In this document: piece after piece, positions 18,102 to 26,035 of the stretch
Position numbering within the stretch: position 1 is the first letter of the stretch
How the letters are laid out: every line of letters starts with the position of its first letter
Source of the DNA: an uncultured Phycisphaeraceae bacterium
GTDB taxonomy: Bacteria; Planctomycetota; Phycisphaerae; Phycisphaerales; UBA1924
Length of the DNA stretch: 39,854 bases
Assembly: GCA_937899905.1 (NCBI GenBank)
Contig: CALCCF010000003.1
Coordinates: 1 to 39,854 of the forward strand
Direction of reading: 5' to 3'
Position numbers and translations under genes: made by a program
Notes under the pieces: model-generated
What the model was told of the DNA's origin: nothing
Database searches by the model: none
What the model saw: only the letters and a program-made list of their open reading frames with translations

Positions 18102-20129
18102 TCAGCCCTCGGGTTCAATGGGCGTCGCCAAGCCGGTTTCCTCTGTGGAATCTTCGATCTCGCCGCGGATCGAGCGCTCGATGAAGGTCTGCAGCGGATC
18201 GATCTGGGAGTCGTCCTCGCCCTCGAGCTCGGGGCGGTCGGCCGTCGCGCTGCGGGCCCGTCGGTTCACGCCCTCGCGGAGGATGTTCCGCTCGACCTGC
18301 CACTGGGCCTTGATCGCCCCGGACTGCTGCAGCTCGGAGACCACCGACACGATGTCGCCGAAGCCCATGCCCAGGCCCGACAACGGGTCTTCCAGGGTCG
18401 GGCGTGTGGCCAGGAACTCGATGAACTCGTGCAAGCGCGACGGCGCGTTGGGCACGGTGACCACGAAGTCGGCCGGCTGATGGCGGTATCGAACCCGAAC
18501 GTCCAACCCCTCGGGGTCGTGCATCGGGTCGCCTACCTCGGGCCGCGCCAGCACCAGGTCGTCGCTCAATCGGAGCACCGCCCCAGGCTCGATTGAGAGC
18601 TCGGGCCCGAAGAGCACGAGCCCAGCTTGGCCCTGCTGACGCAGGAAGATGAGCGGGTCGCCGAGCGGCACACGATCCACGATGAAACCAGATGGCATGA
18701 CGTCGCGTCGTAGCCCCTGCACCAGGCTGCCCCTGAAGCCCTTGGTTGCGATCTCGTTCCAGTCTCGCAAAACGCCCACCCGATCGACGCCCGGGGGCAC
18801 GGGCTGGCTCTCGATCACCGCACGTAACTCGCGGAGGCCCTCGCGGCGGGCCATGGCCTCGTAGGCCGCGACGCGCACCGAGACGGTCTCGCTGGTGGCC
18901 AGGTCTCGCAGGGTCGCATCGACCATCGCGCCGGTGCCCAACTCGCCGAGGAGCTTGAGCGCTTCGAGCTGCTGGTCGACGTTGGAGCTGTCTCGGGCCA
19001 TCGCAATGAGCGGGCGCTCCGCGTTGGGATCGCCGAGCCGCGCGCCCACGCGCAGCGCCGCCATGCGGGGCGCAACCTCGGGCGCGTCGTAGAGCGTCGA
19101 GATCGTTGTCGAGCCGTTGATGACGACCGGGCCCAGCGCCTCGAGCGCCCAAGCGATGCGGTCGGCTGATCCGGGTTCCTCGCGGAGGGCGCGGATGTAG
19201 CGGCCGGCGAACAACTCCTCACGCCCTTGGGCATCGGGGTTGATGTGTGCGACCAGCCGCAGGAAGTCCTCGGAGCGGTCCTTGTAGCTCCAGGGGATGC
19301 TCACGGTGATCAGGCTGGTCGCCGCATCGGACTGACCGGCCAGGCGGCCGCTGGCGATATCGCCCCGGTCGAGCGGGCTTTCGCCGAAGCGGGTGTTGAT
19401 CATGCTCGCGATCGCGCGGGTGCGCCGGGGGCTGGGCACGTTGAGGCGGATGGCCAGCTCGAGCGGATTGGTCATCGTGCCGCCGCCGATGATCCGGCCC
19501 TGGCTGTTGTTGGCCCGCGGCCCGCTCGCGAATGGGTTCGTGTACACGGGGCCCTGGGCGAAGCCGACGAGCCGCGTCGTTGGGCCGCCCTGCACGGTGG
19601 GGCGGCCGAGCCTGAGGTCGGTCTGCCAGAGGTTGCCGCCCGACAGGTCTTCGTTGTTGAGCGAGAACGCGAGCACGTCGAAGTTCGACCCCTCGGGCGC
19701 GCCGGGCGCGATCAGGCCCAGGATGACCACGACCGAGACATCGGGCCTTCGCAAGAAGCTCTCGGGGCTCTCACCCTCGAAGCGGGTCTCATTGAAGATG
19801 TCCATGCCCAGCGTCCCGCTGCGGAGCGAGAGCTGGCGCACGACGGTGGCCTCGACACCGGGTGGCAGCGGTCCGCCGTCGCCGCTGGTGCCCACGACGA
19901 TGCCCAGGCCCGAGACGAGCACGGGCTCGACCCCGATGATCGAGGCGGACGCGCCCACGGTGCCGCGCAGGACGCTTGGGCCGTCGAAGATCGGCAGCAC
20001 GCCCGAGCCGGGGTCTACCACGGTGCCGCGGGCACCGCAGCCGGGCATCAGGCTGGCCACGCCCAGCGTCTGCACGCCGTGCTGCGGTTGGGGCTGGCCT
20101 TTACGGGCGGTTGCGAAGCGTTGGACCAT
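18102..20129 (-). CDS. FlgI-like (flagellar P-ring) protein with HEAT-like repeats
   Basis: A 675-residue protein. Residues about 50-290 resemble FlgI: VSGLGIVVGTSGDGG (72-86) matches the GxGLVVGLxGTGD motif, followed by FLRRPDVSVVVILGLIAPGAPEGSNFDVLAFSLNN and a GFAQGPVYTNPF segment like the FlgI ALAQGPL region. FlgI proper is about 360 residues and builds the P ring around the flagellar rod. Here a HEAT-like stretch (about 400-470: RIAWALEALGPVV, LGDPNAERPLIAMARD, EALKLLGELGTGAMV) and a further 200-residue C-terminal region are added. No other flagellar gene is nearby. The ATG at 20129 has GGAG nine bases upstream; the motif LMPGC (Cys 31) might be an atypical lipobox, but export is uncertain. 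Confidence 0.8.
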   Translation of the reverse strand: MVQRFATARKGQPQPQHGVQTLGVASLMPGCGARGTVVDPGSGVLPIFDGPSVLRGTVGASASIIGVEPVLVSGLGIVVGTSGDGGPLPPGVEATVVRQLSLRSGTLGMDIFNETRFEGESPESFLRRPDVSVVVILGLIAPGAPEGSNFDVLAFSLNNEDLSGGNLWQTDLRLGRPTVQGGPTTRLVGFAQGPVYTNPFASGPRANNSQGRIIGGGTMTNPLELAIRLNVPSPRRTRAIASMINTRFGESPLDRGDIASGRLAGQSDAATSLITVSIPWSYKDRSEDFLRLVAHINPDAQGREELFAGRYIRALREEPGSADRIAWALEALGPVVINGSTTISTLYDAPEVAPRMAALRVGARLGDPNAERPLIAMARDSSNVDQQLEALKLLGELGTGAMVDATLRDLATSETVSVRVAAYEAMARREGLRELRAVIESQPVPPGVDRVGVLRDWNEIATKGFRGSLVQGLRRDVMPSGFIVDRVPLGDPLIFLRQQGQAGLVLFGPELSIEPGAVLRLSDDLVLARPEVGDPMHDPEGLDVRVRYRHQPADFVVTVPNAPSRLHEFIEFLATRPTLEDPLSGLGMGFGDIVSVVSELQQSGAIKAQWQVERNILREGVNRRARSATADRPELEGEDDSQIDPLQTFIERSIRGEIEDSTEETGLATPIEPEG

Positions 20130-20610
20130 TCGGCGCTCTCCGAGGAGGGGGTCGGGGGCTTGGGGGCCCACACTGTACGGGCGAGGCCGGGACGTGCTGC
20201 ATTTGGTTCGAGGGCGAACGTACCACAACCCGATGTCTAGTATTTGTTTGGATAATCGGGCCTCCTGGGCTGTGGGGCTTCGTGCATGGTGGTGTGGACG
20301 GTCGGATGGATGTACAGAACGGTTCAGGATACCCACTATATTGTGTAGGCGTTTTCCGAAAACACAATTTGTCGGTTGCGGATGCTTGGGGTGGCGCTTG
20401 TCTGGGGGGTGTTTCGTAACTCGGCTGCTCAACGCAGTTTACGAAGGACGGCTTGTAGCCGACAGGTTATCCATACCTCATATTGTGGCTAAAAACCTGT
20501 GGAGACACGAAGTATTGTGGGTAGCATAGTGATGCCGATATTCGCGTCCGGTTGGTTGGCCCGGACGCCCCCAGATGGGCAATCGAGCGGACAACCGAGA
20601 GGAACCCACC
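20130..20610. other. A+T-richer divergent intergenic region with inverted repeats and two DnaA-box-like sites
   Basis: No convincing gene lies in these 481 bases between the FlgI-like gene and dcd. From about 20225 to 20530 the sequence is visibly richer in A+T than the coding DNA around it. It holds a perfect 6-bp inverted repeat GTTTTC-c-GAAAAC (20351-20363), an inverted pair TTCGTAA (20413-20419) and TTACGAA (20439-20445), and two sites one mismatch from the DnaA box TTATCCACA: TTATCCATA at 20467-20475 and, on the other strand, TTATCCAAA at 20247-20255. The motif TATTGTG recurs three times. Probably a divergent promoter region; see the findings. Confidence 0.5.
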
Positions 20611-21183
20611 ATGCCCGTGCTGTGCGACGAACAGATCAGGGAGCTGGTCACCATCGAGCCGTTCGAGCGCGGCGAACGCCGGCCCGGCCGGATTTCGTAC
20701 GGTGTTTCCAGCTACGGCTACGACGTCCGCGTGGGCCCGACCTTCAAGATCTTCACGCCTACGCCCCGCGGCGGCGGCATCACCGTGGTCGACCCCAAGA
20801 ACTTCAGCGACGACCTCTTCGTCGAGGTGAACTGCGAGGAGCAGGGCAACGACCACGTGATCATCCCGCCCAACAGCTTCGCGCTGTGCGAGACGGTCGA
20901 GTTCTTCGAGATCCCGCGGGACTGCTTGGTCATCTGCGTGGGCAAGAGCACGTACGCCCGCTGCGGCCTGATCGTGAACGTCACGCCGCTCGAGCCCGAG
21001 TGGCGCGGCAAGATCACGCTTGAGATCAGCAACACCACGCCGCTGCCGGCCCGCGTGTACGCGAACGAGGGCATCGCGCAGCTGGTGTTCTTGAAGGCCG
21101 ACCAGGTGTGCTCGACGAGCTACGCGGATAAGGCCGGGAAGTATCAGGATCAGGCTGGGTTGACGTTGCCGAAGGTGGATTAG
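20611..21183 (+). CDS. dcd: dCTP deaminase
   Basis: A 190-residue dCTP deaminase of the trimeric dUTPase-like fold, converting dCTP to dUTP plus ammonia for dTTP supply. [10 protein letters not shown] (111-120) carries the phosphate/base-binding Lys, Ser and Arg, and [19 protein letters not shown] (about 123-141) carries the catalytic general base E138, matching E138 of the E. coli enzyme. The length is typical (about 190). The ATG at 20611 follows GAGAGGA; upstream in-frame codons lack a site. It heads a tight same-strand run: 13 bases to the next gene, then a membrane protein, then nrdJ, so deoxynucleotide genes frame two unknown ones. Confidence 0.95.
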
Positions 21184-21196
21184 GAGACACGAACTC

Positions 21197-21505
21197 GTGG
21201 CGAAAAAGACAGCAAAATCATCTTCTAGATCAAAAAGCGAGCAGACCAGCAAAAAGGCTGCTTCCTCGGCGAGCAAGACACTCAAGAGTAAGAGCGCAAG
21301 CAAATCGGCAAAGAGTGCGGCTGGCAGCGCTCTCAGCCAAACCGGCAACTCGAAGACCACAAAGAAGAGCGCAGGATCAGCGGCTTCAAAGACGCTTCGG
21401 TCAAAGTCGGCTAGCGCGAGTGCAAAGTCCGCAGCTGGAAGCGCCCTAACTCAACGCCCGTCAGCAGAACGTGTGTCCAAGGGTGGCGGAAAGAAAAAGA
21501 AGTAG
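21197..21505 (+). CDS. Lys/Ser/Ala-rich basic repeat protein, unknown function
   Basis: A 102-residue, strongly basic, low-complexity protein without aromatic residues, resembling a histone H1 tail in composition. It contains an internal duplication: residues 19-48 and 56-86 share SASKTL(K/R)SKSAS-SAKSAAGSAL(S/T)Q, each ending in the same SALxQ. The tail is KGGGKKKK. The start is GTG at 21197, with GGAG overlapping the dcd stop region. The next gene begins three bases after its stop, which suggests coupled translation. Possible roles are nucleic-acid binding or binding the acidic face of a partner; neither is shown. Base composition is lower in G+C than in dcd and nrdJ, a sign of separate origin. 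The family has no name I can give. Confidence 0.75.
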   Translation: MAKKTAKSSSRSKSEQTSKKAASSASKTLKSKSASKSAKSAAGSALSQTGNSKTTKKSAGSAASKTLRSKSASASAKSAAGSALTQRPSAERVSKGGGKKKK

Positions 21506-21508
21506 CGA

Positions 21509-22246
21509 ATGTTGCAAGGTTCTGTTCAACTAGCGCTTAACGATTTGCTGATCTACATCGTCATCGGTGTAATGGCGATCGTGCTGGGCACAGTTGTCTG
21601 GACTGGTAGTGTTTCGGAAGTGGTTCGGTTAGCCAGTGAGATTACGCCGGCGGTCGGTGTTTTGCTCCTTGCTCTTTGCTATGTCGCGGGTTTTGTGACC
21701 CGATCGATGCTCGAGTGGATCGAAACCGCTATCACTAAAAAGACTGATGATGAGCATGACTCCGAGTTTCGAGCTCCTTTCCAGAAAATTTGCGACTGGG
21801 CCAATCTCAGCTTTATGCCCCACATGCGTAATGAGGCCCAGAAGTTCGAAGTAGCTGCGGCGTGCTTCACATCCATGCTTAGAAAGAGGGATGGCGCAGT
21901 TTGGGGTGAACTTGGCGATGATCGTGTCGTAAATGATGTGGAAAGCGACTTGGCGGAGCGCAGCGTGGTAGACTCGCTCTATCTGTCGCGGCTCGGAACT
22001 CTTGCCACCTTTGCTGCCTGCCTCTCAATAGTTCTCATCGTTTTCTCTATCGCCGTAGTTGCTCGCATGATCCTTCTCTGTGAGGGGGGTATCTGGCTTC
22101 TAGTTGCCCCCTTTTCTTTATTTCTCGGTTTGATTTGTCGCGGACAACATGAGCGACTGCTGCAAGAGATTCGCACTGCGAAGGTTGTCCAGGGTATCAG
22201 TTCCCTCATTTTGGAATCACGCAGCGAACAGACTCGCTGTATTTGA
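21509..22246 (+). CDS. Four-helix membrane protein of unknown function
   Basis: A 245-residue protein with two helix pairs: TM1 about 11-31 (LNDLLIYIVIGVMAIVLG), TM2 about 47-67, TM3 about 164-190 and TM4 about 193-211. The loop between TM2 and TM3 (70-160) is hydrophilic and charged, with a WANLSFMPHMRNEAQKFEVAAACF segment; the C-terminus is an amphipathic helix (RGQHERLLQEIRTAKVVQ). I see no pore, transporter or enzyme motif and do not recognise the family. A+T content is high for this genome: 21721-21780 has 27 G/C of 60, against 42 of 60 in a stretch of nrdJ (22741-22800). It follows the basic repeat gene by three bases and precedes nrdJ by 21. Confidence 0.82.
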   Translation: MLQGSVQLALNDLLIYIVIGVMAIVLGTVVWTGSVSEVVRLASEITPAVGVLLLALCYVAGFVTRSMLEWIETAITKKTDDEHDSEFRAPFQKICDWANLSFMPHMRNEAQKFEVAAACFTSMLRKRDGAVWGELGDDRVVNDVESDLAERSVVDSLYLSRLGTLATFAACLSIVLIVFSIAVVARMILLCEGGIWLLVAPFSLFLGLICRGQHERLLQEIRTAKVVQGISSLILESRSEQTRCI

Positions 22247-22267
22247 ACCGCTATCGGAAGTAGCTAA

Positions 22268-25200
22268 ATGAAGATCACCCGAAAGTTCACCACCGCCGGC
22301 CAGAACCCCTTCGATACCGTCAAGTGGACGACGCGTTCGAGCAAGATCAGCAATCCTGATGGCTCGATCGTGTTCGAGATGAGCGACGCCGAGGTGCCGG
22401 CGACGTGGAGCCAGCTGGCGACCGACATCGCGGTGAGCAAGTACTTCCGCAAGGCGGGCGTGCCGCAGATGGAAGACCAGAACGCGATCATTGCCGGGGG
22501 GTGGCAGGCCGCCACCAAGCGGGCCACGGATGGCCTCCCCTCCGGCGTGAAGAAGGACGCGGACGGCAAGCCCGTGATGGGCCCCGAGCGCAGTGTGCGC
22601 CAGCTGGCGCACCGGCTGGCCGGCTGCTGGCGTCACTGGGGCGAGCAGCACCGTTACTTCGATACGCCCGAGGACGGCCAGGCTTTCTATGACGAGCTGG
22701 TCTACATGCTCATCCACCAGATGGCCGCCCCCAACAGCCCGCAGTGGTTCAACACGGGCCTGAACTGGGCGTACGGCATCGACGGCCCGCCGCAGGGCCA
22801 CTGGGTTCCCGAGCCCAAGACGGGGAAGGTGTCGCTGGCCAAGGGCGCATACAAGCACCCCCAGCCGCACGCGTGCTTCATCCAGAGCGTCGAGGACGAC
22901 CTGGTGAACGACGGCGGCATCATGGACCTGTGGGTGCGCGAGGCGCGTCTCTTTAAGTACGGCAGCGGCACGGGCACGAACTTCAGCCAGCTCCGCGGCG
23001 AGGGCGAGCAGCTCAGCGGCGGCGGCAAGAGCAGCGGCCTGATGAGCTGGCTCAAGATCGGCGACCGCGCGGCGAGCGCCATCAAGAGCGGCGGGACCAC
23101 GCGTCGCGCCGCCAAGATGGTCTGCCTTGATATGGACCACCCCGACATCGAGAGCTTCGTGAACTGGAAGGTGCGCGAGGAGATCAAGGTGGCGGCGATG
23201 GTCGAGGGCCTGCAGAAGATCGCCGGCGAGCGCGCCAGCATGCACGACCCCGAGACCGTTGGCGAGACGGCAGCGCGGCTGGGCCTGATGCTCGACTACG
23301 ACTTCAACGGCGAGGCGTACGCGAGCGTCGCCGGCCAGAACAGCAACAACTCGGTGCGCGTGCCCGACGAGTTCTTCGAGGCGGTCGACAACGGCAGCCA
23401 GTGGCAGACGCGCTGGCGTACCACGAGCGAGGCGGCCCGGACGCTGGACGCCCGCAAGCTGTGGGACGACATCGCGTACGCCGCGTGGCGGTGTGCCGAC
23501 CCTGGCGTGCAGTACGACACGACCATCAACGCGTGGCACACGTGCCCGAGCGCGGGACGCATCAACGCGAGTAATCCGTGCAGCGAGTACATGTTCCTTG
23601 ATAACACGGCGTGCAACCTGGCGTCGCTGAACCTCATGAAGTTCTACGACGCCCCCACGCGACACTTTGATGTGCGGGCGTACGAGCACGCGATCGATGT
23701 GTGGACGATGGTGCTCGAGATCAGCGTGCTGATGGCGGCGTACCCGAGCAAGGAGGTCGCCGAGCGGAGCTGGAAGTACCGCACGCTGGGCCTTGGCTAC
23801 GCGAACCTGGGCGCCATGCTCATGCAGGCGGGCATCGCGTACGACAGCGAGGACGGCCGGGCGATTTGCGGCTGCTTGTCGGCGATCATGACCGGCGGCT
23901 CGTACCGCCAGTCGGCGAAGATGGCCAAGGAGCACGGCCCGTTCCCGGGGTACAAGGCCGACAGCGAGAACATGCTCCGTGTGATCCGCAACCACCGCCG
24001 CGCGGCGCACGGCGTAAAGCGTGAGGCGGCCGAGTGGGAGGGGTTGCACCCGAGCACGCGTCCGGTGCCGATCGATCAGTCGCGCTGCCGCGGCGGCAAG
24101 GTACCTGTGGCCAACACGCCCGAGCTGCTCGATCGCGCTCGCATGGCGTGGGACCAGGCCATCCAGCTTGGTGAGAAGCACGGCTATCGCAACGCCCAGA
24201 CCACAGTCATCGCGCCTACGGGCACCATCGGCCTGCTGATGGACTGCGATACCACGGGTGTGGAGCCGGACTTTGCGCTGGTGAAGTTCAAGAAGCTGGC
24301 CGGCGGCGGATACTTCAAGATCGCGAACGCCAGCGTGAAGCCCGCGCTCGAGGCGATGGGCTATTCCGAGTCGGAGCGTCAGGACATGCTCCGCTACCTC
24401 TTGGGCACGCTGCACCTTGAGGTGCCGCTGCCCGAGGGTGTGCAGGGGGCCATGGAAGGCCAGACGCTGGCGCAGTGGCTGCGCGGCAAGGGGCTGATCG
24501 AGGACGACATCAAGCGCATCAACGACGCGCTGCCGGGTGTCTTCGAGCTGGGCTTTGCCTTCAGCGCGTGGTCGCTTGGTGACGAGGCCCTGGAGCGCGC
24601 CGGTGTGGATGCCGAGGCCGCGAAGGGCAACATGACCTTCAACCTGCTGCGTGAGCTTGGGCTGAGCGCGAAGCAGATCACCGAGCTGAACTACACCATC
24701 TGTGGCACGCAGACGCTTGAGGGTGCGCCGCACATGAAGGCCGAGCACCTGCCGGTGTTCGATTGTGCCAACACGTGCGGTCCGCTGAGCACGCGGTTCA
24801 TCGAGCCTAAGGGCCACATCCGCATGATGGCGGCCGCCCAGCCGTTCATCAGTGGTGCGATCAGCAAGACCATCAACCTGCCCAACGAGGCGAGCGTTGA
24901 GGACATCAAGGAGTGCTACCGGGTTAGCTGGGAGCTTGGCATCAAGGCCAACGCGCTGTACCGCGACGGTTGCAAGCTCAGCCAGCCGCTGAGCACCAAG
25001 AGCGATGCCACTGAGGACGAAACCGAGGAGCCGGTCGAGGCCGCCTTGGAAGTGAAGGCGATCGAGGTAGACCTCCTCGAAGACACGGTCGAGGTCGACG
25101 CGGACGGCGAGGCCGAGGCGCTCGAAGAGGTCGAGGAGTTGACCGTTGCGGCGGCGAAGTCCGCGAGCGAGCAGGACACGCGCACGGTTGTCGAGACCGT

Positions 25201-26035
25201 GGAGCGGATCGTGCACCGTCCGATGCGTCGCCGCCTGCCCGACACGCGCGGCTCGCTGACGCACAAGTTCAATATCGCCGGCCACGAGGGCTACCTGACC
25301 GTTGGCCTGTACGAGGACGGCATGCCCGGCGAGCTGTTCATCACGATGGCCAAGGAAGGCTCGACCATCGGCGGCCTCATGGACAGCCTTGGCACCGCGG
25401 TGAGCGTCTCGCTGCAGTACGGTGTTCCGCTTGAGAGCCTGGTGCGCAAGTTCACGCACCAGCGCTTCGAGCCCGCGGGCATGACCACCAACCGAGATAT
25501 CCCGCTGGCCAAGAGCCTTGTGGATTACATCTTCCGTTGGCTAGGCATCGAGTTCATCCCGGGGTATCGCGAGGCGAACACGCCGCGGCGCAATATCGAA
25601 GGCGGCACGAACGAACGCGGAGAGGGCGGTAGTGACTCGGCGGAGCCGGTCTCGTCCGACCGCGTGCGTCCGCTCGCTGGCCCCACGGACGGGGCTGGCG
25701 ATCGGGTCGATGCGGCCGCCCGCATGACGCGGGAGGCCAACGGCCACGATGGCGACATCGATGCCTCGGAGAACGTGAGCGGTGCTTCGGCGGTCGCGAA
25801 GGCCGAGCCGGTGGTAGCCACGACGCGCCACGTTGTGGTCGAGGCCGCCGAGACAACCGTCCGTCGATCGCGAGCGGCCGAGCCGGCGACCAAGACCGGC
25901 GAGTCGGCGCAGCTTTCCAGCATGCTCGAGAGCATGGCCGACGCACCCGCCTGCGACGTCTGCGGCACGATCACCGTTCGCAATGGCACCTGCTACAAGT
26001 GCCTGAACTGCGGCAACAGCATGGGATGCAGCTGA
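22268..26035 (+). CDS. nrdJ: Vitamin B12-dependent (class II) ribonucleoside-diphosphate reductase
   Basis: A 1255-residue adenosylcobalamin-dependent ribonucleotide reductase, making deoxyribonucleotides without oxygen. Signature segments are [14 protein letters not shown], the active-site NPCSE (436-440, Cys 438), [44 protein letters not shown], and a TSCPD-type domain (about 985-1085, [13 protein letters not shown]-like). The C-terminus has redox/zinc cysteines, CDVC (1229-1232) and [13 protein letters not shown]. An acidic Glu/Val-rich linker (about 915-970) and a second low-complexity linker (about 1110-1220) separate these domains. The ATG at 22268 follows GGAAG. A strong terminator lies about 105 bases after the stop. 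Confidence 0.96.
   Translation: [1255 protein letters not shown]

Follow-up and report, generated by a model that had tools for sequence, protein, structure and literature searches.

As judged from sequence comparison, the interval between the host genes dcd and nrdJ is a variable slot: its content differs among related genomes, the cargo that could be recognized runs in the direction of the operon, pairs resembling NrdR operators lie upstream of dcd, and the smaller of the two genes that fill the slot here, ORF A, belongs to a family that often adjoins defence genes. The slot and the family membership of ORF A are much firmer than any function of the cargo. The functional reading that we favour, and to which we give slightly less than an even chance, is that ORF A and ORF B would be cargo of the defence type, gained by horizontal transfer and lacking a promoter, within a variable slot of an NrdR-controlled dcd-nrdJ operon, with ORF B as a putative membrane effector and ORF A as its accessory.

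Gene Layout and Base Composition

The window, i.e., the whole stretch of 39,854 bases that was analyzed, carries the four genes of Table 1 on the same strand, separated by gaps of 13 (dcd/ORF A), 3 (ORF A/ORF B) and 21 bases (ORF B/nrdJ). ORF A encodes 102 amino acids from a GTG start, comprising 28 serines, 22 lysines and 20 alanines, while ORF B encodes 245 amino acids from an ATG start. Both genes stand out by composition: their G+C content is 0.54 (ORF A) and 0.51 (ORF B) compared to 0.64 for dcd and 0.66 for nrdJ, and their GC3 is 0.55 and 0.54, respectively, compared to 0.94 and 0.89. Computed over 400-base windows, positions 21155-22399 form the sole segment of at least 500 bp with a G+C content below 0.56 in the window. 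For congener G004, 12 low-G+C segments of at least 500 bp were counted in 280 kb sampled, located in six of the 14 stretches. A simple consensus scan of positions 20350-22400 recognized no sigma70-like promoter and no terminator, so transcription of ORF A, ORF B and nrdJ probably relies on the promoter of dcd. Coordinates, G+C and GC3 thus agree with the preliminary description, which had reported a gene pair of lower G+C between dcd and nrdJ with this spacing. Its further proposal, an inserted pair that is probably part of one transcript, is supported, and the pair looks foreign. As a separate observation made by eye, the final codons of dcd (approximately 21139-21183) often end in G across the genus, unlike the remainder of the gene.

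Table 1. Features of the dcd-nrdJ locus and its control region (positions within the window).
Feature	Position	Strand	Basis
Distal NrdR-box-like pair	20331..20377	+	Boxes 20331-20346 and 20362-20377; 15-base spacer; 14/16 and 11/16 consensus matches
Proximal NrdR-box-like pair	20473..20520	+	Boxes 20473-20488 and 20505-20520; 16-base spacer; 11/16 and 12/16 consensus matches
dcd, dCTP deaminase (host gene flanking the slot on the left)	20611..21183	+	TIGR02274, 2.6e-43; Pfam/NCBIfam
ORF A, small basic protein with two PHROG 5079 units	21197..21505	+	Profile match, unit alignment, AlphaFold model
ORF B, putative four-helix membrane protein	21509..22246	+	Hydropathy; without usable homologues
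nrdJ, class II ribonucleotide reductase (host gene flanking the slot on the right)	22268..26035	+	TIGR02504, 1.2e-172; Pfam/NCBIfam

A Variable Slot between dcd and nrdJ

The slot was surveyed in the genome itself and 60 relatives (61 genomes). A dcd gene was found in 55 of them, and 53 intervals were measured, leaving out G036, where dcd lies at a contig end, and G057, which has no nrdJ within 3.9 kb; the interval L046 of G030 is a lower bound, as the contig ends there. Interval lengths range from 42 to 2058 bp, with 15 intervals of at most 160 bp, three of 160-400 bp and 35 above 400 bp. Seven congeners have seven different contents. The genome under study carries ORF A and ORF B in 1087 bp. 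The others comprise a 178-aa frame with host-like GC3 (641 bp), a 164-aa frame, whose helix-turn-helix match falls just under the cut-off, together with an M78 peptidase (1465 bp), no gene (L024, 118 bp), no frame longer than 96 aa (L025, 607 bp), a 268-aa hydrophobic protein unrelated to ORF B (G004, 844 bp), and an IVP protein with one further frame (995 bp). Measured between match ends, two intervals upstream of dcd remain within 3-51 and 129-184 bp in the same congener genomes. Behind nrdJ, however, the interval is variable too (approximately 200-1400 bp between match ends in five genomes), hence the slot may belong to a generally plastic neighbourhood. At positions 14601-15171 of L094, a low-G+C segment of a congener lies just downstream of nrdJ and is a possible second slot. 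Among the titles and abstract openings listed by searches of an open-access library, there was no account of a variable slot between dcd and nrdJ.

The recognized cargo in the 53 intervals consists of IVP/S23 (n = 9), DUF4282 (n = 7), M78 (n = 3), HNH (n = 2) and PHROG 5079 (n = 2). All 23 of these genes recognized by homology run with the operon (IVP/S23 9/9, DUF4282 7/7, Peptidase_M78 3/3, HNH 2/2, PHROG 5079 2/2), as counted with queries drawn from + strand frames, by which a family occurring only in reverse would be missed. One of the IVP/S23 calls was made by Pfam (9.8e-36) and the other eight by similarity to that one. Some DUF4282 copies have a host-like GC3, and the DUF4282 genes in the slot may perhaps be residents rather than cargo. 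The IVP/S23 genes in six slots (L028, L029, L030, L032, L040 and L043) are flanked by inverted repeats of the GAGGCA/TGCCTC type, as if they were small mobile elements themselves. Apart from these repeats around IVP genes, slot junctions compared by eye have no common end sequences, and no integrase was recognized in the part of the gap frames that was scanned. An attC site takes up at least about 55 bases. The possibility of an integron cassette was rejected, since the 13, 3 and 21 bases between the genes offer too little room for attC. Two other slot frames gave matches under the Pfam cut-off: a 311-aa frame in L034 weakly resembles nucleoside 2-deoxyribosyltransferase (E 0.0086), and a 200-aa frame in L050 has a C-terminal RHIM-like motif (Pfam RHIM, E 0.005), making it a possible amyloid-signalling defence protein. 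In addition, the dcd match at G021:C1:259348-259998 falls in two parts with 81 in-frame bases between them, a possible 27-residue insertion in the dCTP deaminase.

The preliminary description had reasoned that a pair fixed between dcd and nrdJ in all relatives, with normal composition, would speak against its proposal of an undescribed system; ORF B is absent from all of the other 52 measured intervals. The same survey bears on a rival explanation, in which the slot is a permissive gap in a well-expressed operon, and ORF A and ORF B were acquired by chance, play no dNTP-linked role and are heading to decay. The near-empty or apparently decayed gaps of L024 and L025, the many unrelated cargos, the varying interval behind nrdJ and the lack of usable relatives of ORF B are all in its favour. 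Nonetheless, both frames are intact and tightly packed, ORF A retains the conserved residues of its family in both units, and this family is associated with defence genes. We consider such a drifting passenger somewhat unlikely, while it keeps appreciable weight.

The Control Region Upstream of dcd

The window was scanned with an NrdR-box consensus, without training on these promoters and with a score of at least 20 as the threshold for a pair. Two NrdR-box-like pairs were returned for the whole window, both upstream of dcd, and none for the 280 kb sample of congener G004 at the same threshold. Six congener regions contain one or two such pairs each, all upstream of dcd as well. The distal pair outscores the proximal one on the consensus and may also serve the divergent frame at 18102-20432. 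A weight matrix was trained on ten box pairs (from the genome itself and nine relatives) and has a background maximum of 9.1. It exceeded this maximum in 16 of 19 unseen promoters, several of them on one box only; the remaining three (L045, L049 and L050) did not rise above it. The genome also encodes NrdR, with an ATP-cone above the cut-off and a CPFCG zinc-ribbon start recognized by eye.

NrdR binds paired 16-bp boxes with a usual spacing of 15-16 bp, and needs ATP plus dATP rather than ATP alone (PMC12051234). The locus has this arrangement, i.e., paired 16-bp boxes with spacers of 15-16 bp upstream of an RNR operon, by the published spacing rule (PMC12051234). The dcd-nrdJ operon is probably NrdR-controlled and, given the box pairs upstream of dcd and the encoded NrdR, the cargo is probably under dNTP-sensing control.

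ORF B

Kyte-Doolittle averages over 19 residues exceed 1.4 at approximately residues 1-39, 37-71 and 157-213 of ORF B, a profile that fits four predicted helices in two pairs, with a loop of about 90 residues between the pairs. None of 2000 mononucleotide shuffles retained the open frame of 245 codons. No relative is present in the 60 relative genomes, and the best other match among 392 genomes of the phylum (overlapping the 60) is a partial one in G113 (E 0.003; residues 15-108) with two stops. There is no match in Pfam (E up to 1), PADLOC, PDB sequences, plasmids or phages, nor in IMG/VR and genome_contigs, searches that reach close relatives only. Matches were weak in NCBIfam, with a prenyltransferase as the best (15.5 bits against a cut-off of 239), and in PHROGs, with phrog_15068 as the best (E 0.066). 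A single-sequence structure model reaches a mean pLDDT of 52.5 and is not reliable. The similar-looking 268-aa cargo of congener G004 proved not homologous on comparison, and the S_4TM and SLATT effector profiles do not match ORF B, as judged by the Pfam search with its E limit of 1. As no usable homologue is available, the function of ORF B rests on its topology, from which we infer a membrane effector.

The search results also bear on the view that ORF A and ORF B form a two-component device, as had been suggested at the outset. Co-occurrence of their homologues had been named as a check, and among 105 loci of ORF A relatives, no neighbour significantly matches ORF B, which counts against a unit. 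Relatives of ORF A occur without ORF B, and the genomes and databases searched gave no usable homologue of ORF B; a conserved device of the two is therefore unsupported.

ORF A and the PHROG 5079 Family

ORF A matches PHROG 5079 (E 5e-16), a phage protein family listed without function, and each of its two units does so. The units (approximately residues 17-48 and 55-86) align without gaps over 32 amino acids. ORF A retains the conserved residues of PHROG 5079 in both of them, and the T, A, L, K and S-A-L-x-Q positions are conserved across phyla. A motif scan confirmed by tblastn returned 140 relatives from genome_contigs, of which 80 were kept, and another 25 from viral contigs; the record titles include Planctomycetota, Hyphomicrobium, Rhodobacteraceae, Dehalococcoidia, Streptococcus and Herbidospora, among others. 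Double-unit proteins laid out like ORF A also span phyla, and 13 columns are invariant among 22 of them. The AlphaFold model of ORF A (mean pLDDT 64.9) comprises two helical hairpins, with a local pLDDT near 80 at the hairpin cores and low confidence towards the ends, and a fold search with this model gave no usable match (best E 2.0). ORF A has no match in Pfam and one non-significant match in PADLOC (E 0.59). By tblastn, ORF A or related short queries found nothing in phages, and nothing in plasmids apart from the query's own occurrence on two planctomycete plasmids; low-complexity filtering probably limits both searches.

Genomic Neighbours of ORF A Relatives

A gene was counted as a neighbour if it lies on the same strand, encodes at least 100 amino acids and is located within 350 bp, with genes called by a custom script. 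Such a neighbour is present at 58 of 105 loci of ORF A relatives and lacking at 47. After inclusion of the following genes and removal of near-duplicates, by which two of the 58 loci were lost, the set comprises 78 proteins from 56 loci. At least 16 of these 56 loci contain a defence, toxin-antitoxin or conflict family: a SMODS cyclase with S_4TM (L177, Novosphingobium) or Sa_NUDIX (L167), HsdR (L131, L192), Eco57I (L160), a C5 methylase (L181), AAA_15/AAA_21 (L179), MNT plus HEPN (L168), RES (L170), HicB (L171), TIR_2 (L187), Peptidase_M78 (L158, L165), DndB (L183), WYL (L189) and patatin (L159), the last few entries up to patatin being looser evidence than the first ones. Outside this set of 16, the small gene of planctomycete G088 is preceded by the HsdM and HsdS genes from a type I restriction operon. 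The control set of 78 genes, taken from the same loci at a distance above 2.2 kb, is mainly housekeeping, with EcoEI_R_C and HicB as defence-type families among the 25 of 53 families listed; the contrast between neighbours and control is qualitative, since the families were compared among those 25 and genes were called by a custom script. Nine loci, of which eight are from Hyphomicrobium, have a common conserved setting in which no defence gene was recognized; these loci and the 47 without a neighbour count against the association.

By these gene calls, small proteins of the PHROG 5079 type often adjoin defence and toxin-antitoxin genes. Defence and nucleotide genes had both been raised beforehand as neighbours to look for; defence-type genes occur at no fewer than 16 of 56 loci, and nrdJ recurs in three phyla. 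The PHROG 5079 neighbourhood points to defence loci across phyla and could guide the discovery of new systems, ORF B included.

The adjacency to toxin-antitoxin genes raises a second rival explanation, by which ORF B would be a membrane toxin and ORF A a small antitoxin or regulator, kept by addiction and with phage defence as a side effect. The two genes are indeed adjacent at three bases and one of them is small, while relatives of ORF A adjoin RES, HicB and MNT/HEPN genes as well as M78 regulators. Unlike a dedicated antitoxin, however, these relatives have very different partners or no same-strand partner, and the modelled helical hairpins of ORF A have no usable fold match. Based on this combination, a toxin-antitoxin pair seems unlikely.

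Link of the ORF A Family with nrdJ

At loci of ORF A relatives that were not selected for nrdJ, this gene is located in the fetched flank in four cases out of 117 and absent in 113, a total that includes five duplicates from contigs fetched twice. The four loci are from G047, G367 (planctomycete), one Rhodobacteraceae genome and Herbidospora, a member of the Streptosporangiaceae. The order in G047 is dcd, the small gene, a frame of 208 aa that matches no Pfam family, M78 and nrdJ. Targeted searches located the small gene immediately downstream of nrdJ and in the same orientation in 4/4 Streptosporangiaceae genomes with a match (150 searched) and in 9/22 Rhodobacteraceae genomes with a match (295 searched). 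When nrdJ loci of both families were sampled instead (the best-scoring 30 per family, leaving out three known Streptosporangiaceae positives), a relative of ORF A lies downstream in three of 60; two of these are the starting loci and the third is one of the nine. On this evidence from gene order, nrdJ is a recurrent place for the ORF A family in three phyla and not an obligate partner, with shared ancestry possible within a family. The tie to nucleotide-pool genes that the preliminary description had put forward is supported: the slot lies behind NrdR-like operators and the family recurs beside nrdJ in three phyla.

A dNTP-pool accessory, i.e., a protein by which family members beside nrdJ would assist the class II ribonucleotide reductase or its mRNA, with ORF B as unrelated cargo, is suggested by the same-strand place just behind nrdJ in the four Streptosporangiaceae, the nine Rhodobacteraceae and planctomycete G367, but is improbable given the few relatives at the sampled nrdJ loci (a sample that left out three known positives), the 113 loci without nrdJ in the fetched flank, and the position of ORF A upstream of nrdJ with foreign composition.

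Proposed Function

The mechanism behind defence-type cargo in an NrdR-controlled slot would run as follows. NrdR would repress the operon when dATP is plentiful. As dNTP pools fall, the operon would open, and dNTP stress, for instance when a phage takes over the cell, would thereby switch on the cargo. ORF B may then act as a membrane effector, a pore or depolarizer that halts the cell. ORF A, with its two basic helical hairpins, may be an accessory that restrains or positions ORF B, or it may bind nucleic acid. Much of the slot cargo is non-defence (nine IVP/S23 and seven DUF4282 genes), which counts against this reading. If the slot is under NrdR control, it would allow incoming defence genes to be coupled to a dNTP sensor in a simple manner, with no new regulator having to evolve.

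A broader version would turn the NrdR slot into an exchangeable immunity slot. Foreign effectors between dcd and nrdJ or behind nrdJ would inherit dNTP sensing through NrdR and be activated as a phage depletes the pools, the PHROG 5079 protein would be a mobile accessory marking such cargo across phyla, and ORF B would represent a new membrane-effector family. At this breadth, the proposal is decidedly doubtful.

Comparison with Known Systems

PHROG 5079 itself describes one unit of 49 positions, whereas ORF A combines two units with a longer basic tail; members with two units do occur elsewhere. At the level of the locus, defence hotspots between core genes combine conserved flanks with variable, horizontally acquired cargo. 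The dcd-nrdJ slot likewise has conserved flanks and variable cargo, some of it of defence or conflict type, but this cargo is small and resides inside a co-directional host operon. Among CBASS systems with an S_4TM effector, the S_4TM protein of L177 has a helix-helix-loop-helix-helix layout similar to that predicted for ORF B, without sequence similarity (BLASTP E 1.2). In CBASS, the SMODS cyclase (CD-NTase) lies beside the effector, while the cargo in the window consists of ORF A and ORF B only, with no cyclase.

Clover defence comprises the dNTP-sensing dGTPase CloA plus CloB and senses dTTP through its own enzyme (PMC12265719). It would share with the proposed role of ORF A and ORF B that defence is tied to the dNTP pool. 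Compared with Clover, the link in the window would be transcriptional and rely on NrdR of the host, and neither of the two ORFs matches a Pfam family. The closest parallel for the control region is the NrdR regulon: as in RNR operons, paired boxes lie upstream of dcd and NrdR is encoded; the operon in the window differs by the foreign cargo, exchangeable among genomes, that it contains between dcd and nrdJ.
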